Origin: Pseudomonadota bacterium
Lineage (GTDB): Bacteria; Desulfobacterota; Desulfovibrionia; Desulfovibrionales; Desulfovibrionaceae
Length of the DNA: 64,000 nt
Direction: 5' to 3'
Assembly: GCA_018816865.1 (NCBI GenBank)
Contig: JAHIUW010000009.1
Span: 1-64,000, forward strand
The position numbers and the translations under genes are program-made. The notes beneath the pieces are model-generated. The model was given only the letters and a program-made list of their open reading frames with translations, had not been told where the DNA came from and made no database searches. Below, one piece after another: positions 31,513 to 36,078 of the stretch. Position 1 is the first letter of the stretch. The number at the start of each line of letters is the position of its first letter.

Positions 31513-31872
31513 ATGGCTTTGATTATGACGGTGGATGATTCTGCAAGCGTTCGGCAGATGGTGAGCTTTACCCTGAAAAACGACGGTCATGAGGTGCTTG
31601 AGGCCTGTGACGGTAAGGACGCCTTGAGCAAGCTCTCGGGTCCCATCAAGATGGTCATCACCGACCTGAACATGCCTAATATGGACGGCATCGCCCTGAT
31701 CAAGAATATCAGGGCCAATGCCGCCTACAAGTTTATTCCGATCATTATGCTGACCACTGAGTCCCAGGCCGCGAAAAAGCAGGACGGCAAGGCCGCCGGA
31801 GCCACCGGATGGGTCGTCAAACCCTTCAAGCCCGAGCAGCTGCTGGCCGTGGTGAAAAAAGTACTCAGATAG
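31513..31872 (+). CDS. cheY: CheY-type response regulator
   Basis: A 119-residue single receiver domain. Acidic pocket Asp8/Asp9, phospho-acceptor Asp51 in VITDLNMPNMDG, Thr81 in MLTTES and Lys103 in VVKPFKPEQ are all present. Phosphorylated by CheA, it likely binds a motor or another output. GGAGGAG precedes the ATG. Confidence 0.93.
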   Translation: MALIMTVDDSASVRQMVSFTLKNDGHEVLEACDGKDALSKLSGPIKMVITDLNMPNMDGIALIKNIRANAAYKFIPIIMLTTESQAAKKQDGKAAGATGWVVKPFKPEQLLAVVKKVLR

Positions 31873-31959: not shown

Positions 31960-34065
31960 ATGTCGCAGGATGATATCAATCGCCAAGCCTTTCTCGAAGA
32001 GGCCAATGAGCTGCTGGCCGAGTTGGAAACGGCCCTGCTGGAACTCGAGGACACGCCGGATGATTCCGAGCTTGTGGACCGGGTCTTCCGGGCGATGCAT
32101 ACCATCAAGGGTTCCGGCGCCATGTTCGGATTCGAGGATGTGGCGCATTTCACCCACGACGTGGAAACCGTCTTCGACAAGGTCCGCTGCGGTGAGCTTT
32201 CCGTAACCAAGGAACTGCTGGACCTGACACTGGGCGCGCGGGACCATATCCTTGTGCTCCTGGAGGACGAGGGCGGCCAGGCCACCGGTTCTCCCCAGGC
32301 CGAGGCCATTATCGCCGGTCTGCGCAAGCTATTGGGTGTGGACGTTGAAACCGGCACCGCTGTTCAGTCCGAGGCCGAGTTGGATGACCTCAAGGGCTCG
32401 GCGTCCGGGGATATCGTTACCTATCGGATCCGTTTCAAGCCCGAGCCGGGGATCTTCAGCTCCGGTACCAATCCCCTGGCTCTGATCGAGGAATTGACCG
32501 AGATGGGTCTGCACCAGGTCGTGGCCCATACCGAGGGCATTCCACCGCTGTCCGAGCTTGATCCCGAGGATTGCCACATCTGGTGGGATGTCGTGCTGGC
32601 CACGGACCAGGGCGAGGACGCCATTCGCGACGTGTTCATCTTCGTGGATGACGATTGCGAATTGCTGATTCAGGTCATCGACAAGCTGGGGGTCCTGGAC
32701 AGCGACGCGAGCTACAAGCGTCTGGGCGAGATTCTGGTGGAGCGGGGCGATCTGACCCAGGACGATTTGAAAAACGTGCTGGGCGATCAGAGGCGCCTGG
32801 GCGACCTGCTCACCGAGGCCGGTGTGGTCTCCGAGGATCAGATCCGCTCGGCACTGGCCGAGCAGCAGGCCGTGCGCACCATGCGCAAGGTCAAGAAGGA
32901 AGAGACCACCGCCTCCAGCATCCGCGTGGGTGCCGACAAACTGGATTATCTGGTGGATCTGGTGGGCGAACTGGTCATTGTCCAGGCTCAGATCACCCAA
33001 GTCGCCGGGGAGAAGAGCGATCAGGTCTTCATCGAACTGGCCGAGGAGCTGGAACGGCTGACGGACGAACTGCGCGATTCCACGTTGTCGATCCGCATGC
33101 TGCCCATCGGCTCCACGTTCTCCAAGTTCAGGCGACTGGTGCGCGACTTGTCCGACGAATTGGGCAAGCAGATGGAATTGATCACCCATGGCGCTGAAAC
33201 CGAGTTGGACAAGACGGTGATCGAGCGCCTGAATGATCCGCTCGTTCACCTGCTGCGCAATTCCATCGACCACGGCATCGAATCCCCAGAGAAGCGGAAC
33301 GCCGCGGGCAAACCAGCCGTGGGGACGATCTCCCTCTCCGCCGAACATGCCGGGGGCGAGGTCCTGATCACCATCAAGGACGATGGTGCGGGCATGGACC
33401 GTGACGTCATTCTGGCCAAGGGCGTCGAGCGCGGGCTGGTGTCCAAGGATGCCGACCTCTCCGACAAGGAGATCTTTAGTCTGATCTTTGCCCCTGGATT
33501 TTCCACCGCGCACAAGGTGACCAGTGTCTCAGGGCGCGGTGTGGGCATGGACGTGGTCAAGCGCGGCATCGATTCCCTGCGCGGGGCCATCGACGTCAGC
33601 AGCACACGCGGCAAGGGAACGGCGATCACCGTTCGCCTGCCCCTGACCCTGGCCATCATCGATGGCCTGCAGATCAAGGTGCAGGATGAGCATTACGTCA
33701 TTCCCCTGTCTTTGGTGGAGGAATGCGTCGAGCTCATTCAGACTGCCGAGGAACGGGTTCGTGAACAGCAGGTCCTCAATCTGCGCGGCGATATCGTGCC
33801 CTATATCCGGTTGCGCGACTGGTTCACCGTCCCGGGGATTCCCCCGGAGATCGAGCAGGTGGTGGTCACCGGGTTTGACGGCAGCCGCATCGGGATCGTC
33901 GTGGACCATGTCATCGGCGAACACCAGACCGTGATCAAGAGCCTGGGACGGGTGTATCGCGATGTGGATGGCATCTCCGGAGCAACCATCAAGGGGGACG
34001 GCTCCATGGCGCTTATCCTGGACGTGCCGCAGATCATCCGTAGCGCGTCCTCGGGCCGGGGTTGA
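31960..34065 (+). CDS. cheA: Chemotaxis histidine kinase CheA with MshEN-like motif pair
   Basis: A 701-residue kinase that phosphorylates CheY and CheB. P1 (HPt) has the phospho-His in FRAMHTIKGSG (His47); residues 150-245 look like a response-regulator-binding P2 domain; residues 330-385 are the dimerisation helices; the ATPase has HLLRNSIDHGIE (N box), DDGAGMD (G1), GFSTAHKVTSVSGRGVGMD (F/G2, given in pieces: GFSTA, GRGVGMD); the C-terminus is the CheW-like P5. Unusually, residues 254-277 and 279-302 are two motifs of the form RLGxxL-x3-G-x2-x4-[LI]-x3-L-x2-Q, like the MshEN cyclic-di-GMP motif. ATG at 31960 follows GGGAG. No CheW gene is adjacent. Confidence 0.93.
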   Translation: MSQDDINRQAFLEEANELLAELETALLELEDTPDDSELVDRVFRAMHTIKGSGAMFGFEDVAHFTHDVETVFDKVRCGELSVTKELLDLTLGARDHILVLLEDEGGQATGSPQAEAIIAGLRKLLGVDVETGTAVQSEAELDDLKGSASGDIVTYRIRFKPEPGIFSSGTNPLALIEELTEMGLHQVVAHTEGIPPLSELDPEDCHIWWDVVLATDQGEDAIRDVFIFVDDDCELLIQVIDKLGVLDSDASYKRLGEILVERGDLTQDDLKNVLGDQRRLGDLLTEAGVVSEDQIRSALAEQQAVRTMRKVKKEETTASSIRVGADKLDYLVDLVGELVIVQAQITQVAGEKSDQVFIELAEELERLTDELRDSTLSIRMLPIGSTFSKFRRLVRDLSDELGKQMELITHGAETELDKTVIERLNDPLVHLLRNSIDHGIESPEKRNAAGKPAVGTISLSAEHAGGEVLITIKDDGAGMDRDVILAKGVERGLVSKDADLSDKEIFSLIFAPGFSTAHKVTSVSGRGVGMDVVKRGIDSLRGAIDVSSTRGKGTAITVRLPLTLAIIDGLQIKVQDEHYVIPLSLVEECVELIQTAEERVREQQVLNLRGDIVPYIRLRDWFTVPGIPPEIEQVVVTGFDGSRIGIVVDHVIGEHQTVIKSLGRVYRDVDGISGATIKGDGSMALILDVPQIIRSASSGRG

Positions 34066-34157
34066 CGGGGGGCATGATGGTCGCCTCCGCATCTTCACCC
34101 TCCACAGGCCTGGGGGGAGGGAAAAGCAGCACCCTCTGCACAGCCAAGGCTCGCTCC

Positions 34158-34973
34158 ATGAGCGACAAGGATTTCAAGCGTTTTGCCGAGTTCATCCATG
34201 AGGAATGCGGCATCAAGCTGCCACCCTCCAAGAAGACTATGCTTGAGGCGCGACTGCAGAAACGGCTGCGTGTCTTGGGATATGAGGGGTACAAGGAATA
34301 TTGTGAATTCCTGTTCACCCCCGAAGGCATGGAATGCGAGTTGTGCAACCTGATCGATCAGGTGACCACCAACACCACGGATTTCTTCCGTGAACCCAAA
34401 CATTTCGAGCATCTGTACGCGACGCTGCTGCCCCAGTGGATGGCGCAAAACGGAGATCGGCAGGCGCTGAAGATATGGAGCGCTGGTTGTTCCATCGGGG
34501 CGGAGCCGTACACCATGGCCTTCGTGCTTTCCGATTTTCAGCAGGCGAATCCCCAGTTCCGGTTCAAGGTTCTGGCCACGGACATTTCTTCCGAGGTGCT
34601 GGGCAAGGCGGCGCGCGGGGTCTACAGCCAGGAGCAGGCGCGGGGGGTGCCCGGAGCCGTGCTGCGCAAGTATTTTCTGCGGAGCAAGGACCGCGACAAG
34701 AAGCTGGTGCGCGTGGCCCCTGAGATTCGGCGGCTGGTGGAGTTCAGGCAGCTGAATTTCATGGAATCCTTCACCTTTCGTGAAGCCAAGGACATCATTT
34801 TCTGCCGCAATGTGATCATCTATTTCGACAAGCCGACCCAGGCCCGCCTGATGCAGAAGTTTTGCGCGAATCTGAAGCCCGGAGGGCATCTGTTCATCGG
34901 ACACTCGGAAAGTCTGGCTGGTCAGAATCTGCCCCTGGAGCAGGTTGCGCCGACCATCTACAGAAAAGCCTGA
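34158..34973 (+). CDS. cheR: Chemotaxis protein methyltransferase CheR
   Basis: A 271-residue S-adenosylmethionine-dependent enzyme that methylates receptor glutamates. The N-terminal helical domain ([19 protein letters not shown]) and the catalytic domain with [28 protein letters not shown], and FCRNVIIYF are complete. The ATG at 34158 begins at the usual start of the family; earlier in-frame ATGs at 34074 and 34077, near a GGGGGG stretch by the cheA stop, would add up to 28 poorly conserved-looking residues. Lies between cheA and cheB. Confidence 0.93.
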
Positions 34974-35001
34974 TGGATTCGGGTTTGTGAAAGGGAGAGG
35001 C

Positions 35002-36078
35002 ATGGGGAAGAAAATCAAGGTGCTCATCGTGGACGACTCGGCGGTGGTGCGCAACACCATCGCGGAGTTGGTGTCATCCGATCCTGACCTGGAGGTCATG
35101 GATACGGCCGCCGATCCCTTTGTGGCGGCCAAGAAGATGGAGCTTCAGGTTCCCGACGTCATCATCCTGGACGTCGAGATGCCGCGCATGGACGGCCTGA
35201 CCTTCCTGCGCAAGATCATGAGCCAGCACCCGATTCCCGTGATCATGTGTTCAACGTTGACCGAGAAGGGCTCGGAGACCTTGTTGCGCGCCCTGGAATA
35301 CGGGGCTGTGGACATCATCCAGAAACCCAAATTGGGCACCAAGCAGTTCCTGGAAGAATCCAGGATACGTTTCACCGACGCCATCAAGGCCGCGGCCAGC
35401 GCCAAGATGGAAAAGAGGGCGGTCCACAAGGCAATCAAGATCCAGCCCAAGCTCTCGGCCGACGCCGTGATCGACAGTCCGACTCCTGGGTTGAGCAAGC
35501 TGCAGACCACGGAAAAGGTCGTGGCCGTGGGGGCTTCCACCGGTGGCACCGAAGCCCTGCGAATATTTCTGGAGGCTTTGCCCCGCAACTGTCCCGGGGT
35601 GGTCATCGTGCAGCACATGCCCGAGATGTTCACGGCGGCCTTCTCCAAGCGCCTGGACTCCACCTGTGTGATCAAGGTCAAGGAGGCAGCCGATGGCGAC
35701 ACCGTGCTCCCCGGGCAGGCCCTCATCGCTCCGGGCAACAAGCACATGCTCCTGAAGCGCAGCGGGGCGCGCTATTACGTGGAGATCAAGGATGGGCCGT
35801 TGGTGCGCAGGCATCGTCCCAGTGTGGATGTGCTGTTCCGCTCCGCGGCCCGCTACGGTGGAGGCAACGTCATCGGCGTGATCATGACCGGCATGGGTGA
35901 CGACGGGGCCGTGGGCATGAAGGAGATGAAGGACGCCGGGGCGTATACCATTGCCCAGGACGAGGCGACCTGTGTGGTCTACGGCATGCCCGGTGAGGCC
36001 GTGAAGGCGGGTGGGGTGGACAGAATTTTGCCCCTGGAGAGGATCGCGCCGGAGGTGGTTCGCCTGGGTTCGACCTGA
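35002..36078 (+). CDS. cheB: Chemotaxis-specific methylesterase CheB
   Basis: A 358-residue protein with an N-terminal receiver (Asp11/Asp12, phospho-Asp57 in [11 protein letters not shown]) and a C-terminal methylesterase: catalytic Ser179 in GASTGG, His205 in VQHMP and Asp301 in MTGMGDDG. It removes methyl groups placed by CheR, closing the adaptation loop. GGGAGAGG lies upstream of the ATG at 35002. Last gene of the operon. Confidence 0.95.

Follow-up and report, generated by a model that had tools for sequence, protein, structure and literature searches.

The CheA histidine kinase encoded in the window, i.e. the whole 64,000-nucleotide stretch of a Desulfovibrionaceae contig analysed here, carries directly in front of its dimerisation domain a segment that is, as judged from its sequence pattern and profile, a compact module derived from MshEN_N, the N-terminal subdomain of MshEN cyclic-di-GMP (c-di-GMP) receptors, without the accompanying MshEN_C. 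The kinase is 63% identical to its best relative in the genome_contigs set and 86% identical to that of a same-genus genome, and it combines Hpt, P3 dimerisation, HATPase_c and CheW domains, all above the Pfam cut-off, in one chain, so that the complete core of the known CheA architectures is present (Berry, Andrianova and Zhulin, 2023; PMC10542144). The domain upstream of the module (residues 148-242) has invariant G, P, W, F and F positions in 34 orthologues, and searches of Pfam and of the PDB, with the single sequence as well as with a profile, returned no relative for it. Since the PDB contains no relative by sequence or profile, the name P2 is positional only, and the region probably represents an undescribed P2-type domain.

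The gene order at the locus is MCP - STAS - CheY - CheA - CheR - CheB (Table 1), and most of these neighbours also adjoin CheA orthologues in many genera, with CheY being conserved and adjacent at most orthologous loci. The MCP-type protein, which is found upstream of CheA in many genera, has no evident membrane segments. From reading its sequence, both halves contain MCP-like hairpin sequence, and the stretch LQFHDIVRQQ at the end of the first half recalls CheZ-like proteins.

Table 1. Positions in the window of the CheA gene, its domains, the motif pair and the neighbouring genes.
Feature	Coordinates	Strand	Basis or remark
MCP-type signalling protein, 639 aa	29244..31163	+	Pfam MCPsignal 1.3e-16; synteny
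CheY, directly 5' of CheA	31513..31872	+	Pfam Response_reg
CheA histidine kinase, 701 aa (start MSQDD...)	31960..34065	+	Hpt, H-kinase_dim, HATPase_c, CheW above Pfam cut-off
P1 / Hpt, residues 8-92	31981..32235	+	Pfam PF01627, E 2.6e-16
P2-like domain, residues 148-242	32401..32685	+	conservation in orthologues
MshEN-type motif I, R254-Q277 (RLGEILVERGDLTQDDLKNVLGDQ)	32719..32790	+	exact pattern match; profile homology to MshEN_N
One-residue linker, R278	32791..32793	+	canonical MshEN linker is five residues
MshEN-type motif II, R279-Q302 (RLGDLLTEAGVVSEDQIRSALAEQ)	32794..32865	+	exact pattern match
P3 dimerisation domain, residues 319-378	32914..33093	+	Pfam PF02895 (H-kinase_dim), E 5.5e-13
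P4 / HATPase_c, residues 426-563	33235..33648	+	Pfam PF02518
P5 / CheW-like, residues 569-696	33664..34047	+	Pfam PF01584
CheR (open-frame bounds; true start probably later)	34062..34973	+	Pfam CheR 7.9e-62
CheB (open-frame bounds)	34945..36078	+	Pfam CheB_methylest 1.1e-68

A preliminary description of this DNA had placed two 24-residue motifs of the pattern RLG-x2-L-x3-G-x6-[LI]-x3-L-x2-Q between P2 and the dimerisation domain, one residue apart rather than about five, and each of these points held up. Both copies match the pattern exactly, no third match occurs elsewhere in CheA, only R278 separates the two, and the pair is flanked by the P2-like domain on one side and by P3, as assigned by Pfam, on the other. 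From the composition of CheA, the expected number of chance matches in the whole protein is 3e-6 for a single motif and about 1.6e-14 for a pair at a distance of 25 residues, and no match to the motif arose when the sequence was shuffled 20,000 times. The core of the consensus published by Wang et al., RLGxx(LVI)(LVI)xxG(LVI)(LVI)xxxxLxxxLxxQ, is likewise present in both copies, with deviations from the full consensus at position 11 of motif I (D) and at positions 7 (T) and 17 (I) of motif II. At the sequence level, all twelve positions that contact c-di-GMP in MshE are kept, Ile replacing Leu at 295. The five-residue spacer and 53-residue unit of MshEN_N are not found in CheA, which has a linker of one residue and a unit of 49; the canonical MshEN relatives compared here have linkers of 3-7 residues.

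The homology of the segment to MshEN_N is well supported by profile comparisons. A profile built from 62 orthologous CheA segments (A1) was searched against the PDB with hmmsearch, and the clear matches were all MshEN proteins, namely Thermus PilF (8.8e-22), PilB (9e-9), V. cholerae MshE with c-di-GMP (8e-8) and PilF GSPII-B (1.2e-7), below which a gap was followed by chance-level matches. Aligned with hhalign to canonical MshEN_N of related genomes, A1 covered 57 columns at 98.7% probability (P 1.9e-16), the only offset of note being a gap of four residues that falls exactly on the linker, and on whole genomes it matched the N-termini of secretion ATPases in addition to CheA. The best sequence match in the PDB, T. 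thermophilus PilF with its GSPII-A/B/C domains (6f8l, 8pdk), differs from the CheA module in having longer linkers, GSPII (MshEN_C) subdomains and a secretion-type ATPase as host.

The comparison with MshEN/T2SSE_N models, which had been suggested as a check, was thus positive with A1 but negative with Pfam, as the 'MshEN' model PF05157 (cut-off 23.1 bits) matched neither CheA nor any of the 62 orthologous segments. In a canonical protein (L130), the motifs occupy residues 9-61 and PF05157 aligns only from residue 64, and in the secretion ATPase of the window's own genome (L001) the alignment likewise begins only after motif II. From this starting point we conclude that PF05157 models MshEN_C, which is why Pfam misses the CheA segment and why we rejected the model as a membership test for the motif pair. 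Annotation by PF05157 misses c-di-GMP receptors that consist of the N-subdomain only, and it may count degenerate receptors. Two other Pfam families were considered and discarded, namely DUF4388/PATAN (PF14332), which reached 20 bits against a cut-off of 25 over the motif part only, and FumaraseC_C, which also stayed below threshold; canonical MshEN_N yields the same sub-threshold match to the former and the same weak match to the latter, so that neither is informative.

CheA relatives were collected from 79 loci of the genome_contigs scan and from 39 related genomes, and 72 motif pairs could be parsed. The linker comprises one residue in 70 of the 72 orthologues and three and 13 residues in one orthologue each, and the linker residue is mostly Lys (51) or Arg (12). 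With respect to the Arg, Gly and Gln positions, whose conservation the preliminary description had made a touchstone of its reading, the outcome is divided. Gly3 of both motifs and Gln24 of motif II are invariant in all 72 pairs, as are Leu6 of motif I and Ala20 of motif II, and in 69 of them motif I begins with Lys (41) or Arg (28), but Gln24 of motif I is kept in 53 and absent in 19, and position 1 of motif II is occupied by Arg in 40, Pro in 18 and Lys in 8. The deviations do not exclude binding of c-di-GMP, since Thermus PilF domains with Lys, Leu or Pro at these positions bind it: those in which a motif starts with Lys or Leu do so at 2-6 nM, including GSPII-B with Lys and Leu at its two first positions (6 nM), and GSPII-C, a three-motif domain with Pro at position 1 of motif II, binds at about 0.46 uM (PMC11731258). 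In MshE (PDB 5htl), the Gly3 backbone of the motifs contacts the guanine. MshEN_N of V. cholerae MshE binds c-di-GMP with a KD of 0.35 uM when isolated without MshEN_C (Wang et al., 2016; PMC5013675). Specific to CheA is an R9-G10-D11 sequence in motif I, kept in 62, 69 and 63 of the 72 orthologues, respectively. The covariation of I-17 with II-2, which touch each other in the MshE pocket, came second among 1035 pairs, and we discarded it as support because it stems from a single clade, that of Geobacter relatives, and comprises two independent pairs (sign test p = 1).

Of the 96 CheAs placed on a tree built from the kinase core, 14 lack the module, and the tree requires at least seven gains or losses, which characterises it as an accessory element outside this core; where it is missing, the sequence at the site is short or of low complexity. 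A Magnetococcales CheA (L043, 6001-8073) has a truncated motif I that runs into motif II (QQAMQPLGQRL) and could represent a decayed module.

A profile search of 297 genomes of the phylum found, among the matches listed, at least 35 genomes with a match of at least 76 bits, and those whose sequence was inspected were of the same CheA type with a linker of one residue. The weaker matches inspected were mostly other CheA classes, as assigned by BLAST to P1 and P3-P5 (and by Pfam for L209 and L220), in which the motif pair also stands immediately before P3, with linkers of one (L210, L213 and the three-repeat L219 and L227), two (L211, L212, L214, L215), four (L221), five (L209, L220), six (L218) or seven residues (L217, L222). 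As these other classes carry the pair before P3 as well, the MshEN_N pair can be regarded as a recurrent accessory module of CheA; by the sequences compared, one CheA class has it in a fixed form with a linker of one residue. Some Nitrospirota CheAs (L023, L046, L077, L051) have three tandem MshEN-type repeats before P3, with a period of 25 residues in L023, L046 and L077, and the same period is found in L219 and L227, the three-repeat CheAs of another class within the phylum. MshEN-type motifs were also seen in four non-CheA proteins of 233-372 aa (L223, L224, L225, L226), where two to about five of them follow in a row.

AlphaFold, run with A1 on the 67-residue CheA segment, returned four helices (pLDDT 87, pTM 0.53; monomer, without ligand or predicted-error map). 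The top PDB match of this model in Foldseek was 5htl, the structure of MshE bound to c-di-GMP (58 aligned columns with 41% identity, probability 0.90), yet the superposition of the monomer model gave a TM of 0.40 and an rmsd of 11.2 A, and a second aligner (VIA-align) superposed one half only (33 residues, 2.1 A). In the latter, the UPF0352 protein 2qti ranked slightly above 5htl (Z 2.5 and 2.0), both values being too low for interpretation. The control was a canonical MshEN_N as long as the CheA segment, which has a linker of five residues and was modelled from a shallower alignment; it reached a pTM of 0.70, matching MshE with a TM of 0.81 at 1.3 A and a Z of 10.3 over 60 residues. Helix 2 ends at residue 35 in the control, three residues past the motif Gln, and at residue 31 in CheA, so that the residues missing in CheA amount to about one helical turn. 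Because the CheA model matches MshE half by half while the control closes, the compact pair is predicted to keep both helical hairpins but to fail to form the known pocket from a single chain. The module has in common with V. cholerae MshEN_N (5htl), its best fold match in the PDB, the tandem 24-residue RLG...LxxxLxxQ motifs and the contact residues, and differs from it by a linker of one instead of five residues, the lack of MshEN_C, CheA as the host protein and the predicted orientation of its halves.

It had also been proposed that c-di-GMP or a similar ligand could control the kinase directly through this segment. The kinship to MshEN_N and the retained contact residues speak for this proposal; the step from a motif pair to a working pocket, by contrast, is not borne out by the predicted model, which fails to close where the control does. 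From our point of view, a c-di-GMP interpretation is plausible, and we would give about even chances to the module serving, in some form, as a c-di-GMP input to the kinase. A c-di-GMP pool is to be expected in the organism, as its genome has 45 GGDEF and 8 PilZ matches. The module would bind c-di-GMP and pass this input to CheA either by motif I of each protomer in the CheA dimer pairing with motif II of its partner, or by a rearrangement of the pair upon binding. The reason for proposing a pairing between protomers is the short linker, which is predicted to block closure within the chain, and motif I of one chain could reach motif II of the other since CheA dimerises via P3, which starts only 17 residues after motif II. 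The bound ligand would then fix the P1-P2 arm relative to P3 and thereby alter autophosphorylation. If the model is right, the usual pocket may be absent within the chain and form between protomers, or not at all; the narrower idea that the one-residue linker parts the half-sites, with complete c-di-GMP sites arising only between two CheA protomers, appears rather unlikely to us.

The main rival to a c-di-GMP input is that the module descends from MshEN_N but no longer binds c-di-GMP, and either mediates contacts to other proteins as a small helical element or links P2 to P3 as a rigid spacer, for example by docking CheY or by setting the distance of P1-P2 to the core. We regard this as a serious explanation, though not as the likelier one. 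It would fit the predicted arrangement, which unlike that of the control forms no pocket, as well as the three-repeat forms with a 25-residue period, which resemble a repeat array more than a paired pocket, the drift of I-24 in 19 of 72 orthologues and the invariance of II-A20 and II-E23, residues without a known ligand role; a MshEN known for lost binding is XpsE (PMC5013675). However, Gly3 of both motifs and Gln24 of motif II do not vary across several phyla although a spacer would not need them, and a spacer looks dispensable, since the orthologues without the module have only short or low-complexity sequence at this site.

An input by a different ligand, such as another cyclic dinucleotide (e.g. 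3',3'-cGAMP) or another nucleotide bound in a non-canonical geometry caused by the short linker, seems improbable. The predicted geometry does differ from that of MshEN, and relatives of Geobacter, which is known for cGAMP signalling, are among the carriers of the module. The MshEN of V. cholerae binds 3',5'-cGAMP weakly, with a KD of 3.3e-4 M (PMC5013675), but the guanine-specificity residues of MshEN are kept in CheA, and the GGDEF-rich set of the window's organism is an ordinary one. That the likeness to MshEN is a coincidence of a leucine-rich, helix-forming sequence, single copies of which weakly match FumaraseC_C and DUF4388, is strongly disfavoured, given that canonical MshEN_N shows the same weak matches, and given the PDB profile matches, the hhalign P of 1.9e-16, the Foldseek match to 5htl and the chance expectation of about 1.6e-14.

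The fusion of MshEN with CheA as such was mentioned already in 2016, when CheA was named in one phrase among the MshEN partners (Wang et al., 2016; PMC5013675), and at the level of family names the combination is the same as the one found here. The main-text passages of that paper considered here contain nothing on a compact linker, a position next to P3, conservation across a class or variants in repeat number, and in the open literature the compact linker, its class-wide fixation, the linker series and the predicted effect on folding appear undescribed. In a survey of thousands of sequences, CheA was described as being without an input domain, and the main text of this survey mentions neither MshEN nor T2SS nor di-GMP (PMC10542144). 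Our search, which was confined to this open literature, turned up no account of a CheA that binds c-di-GMP. That the module was overlooked in domain surveys is probably due to the Pfam 'MshEN' model, which omits the binding motifs.

CheA is usually described as receiving all of its input via receptors and CheW. If c-di-GMP binds next to P3, chemotaxis-type signalling would be joined to the decision between motile and sessile life inside the kinase itself, and the carriers of the module comprise widespread sulfate- and metal-reducing bacteria as well as Nitrospirota. With its natural series of linkers, from one to seven residues, CheA offers a direct way to see how far binding depends on geometry. 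Should the sites between protomers prove true, there would be a class of CheA with a built-in second-messenger switch on the dimer, against the view of a kinase that has no input domain.
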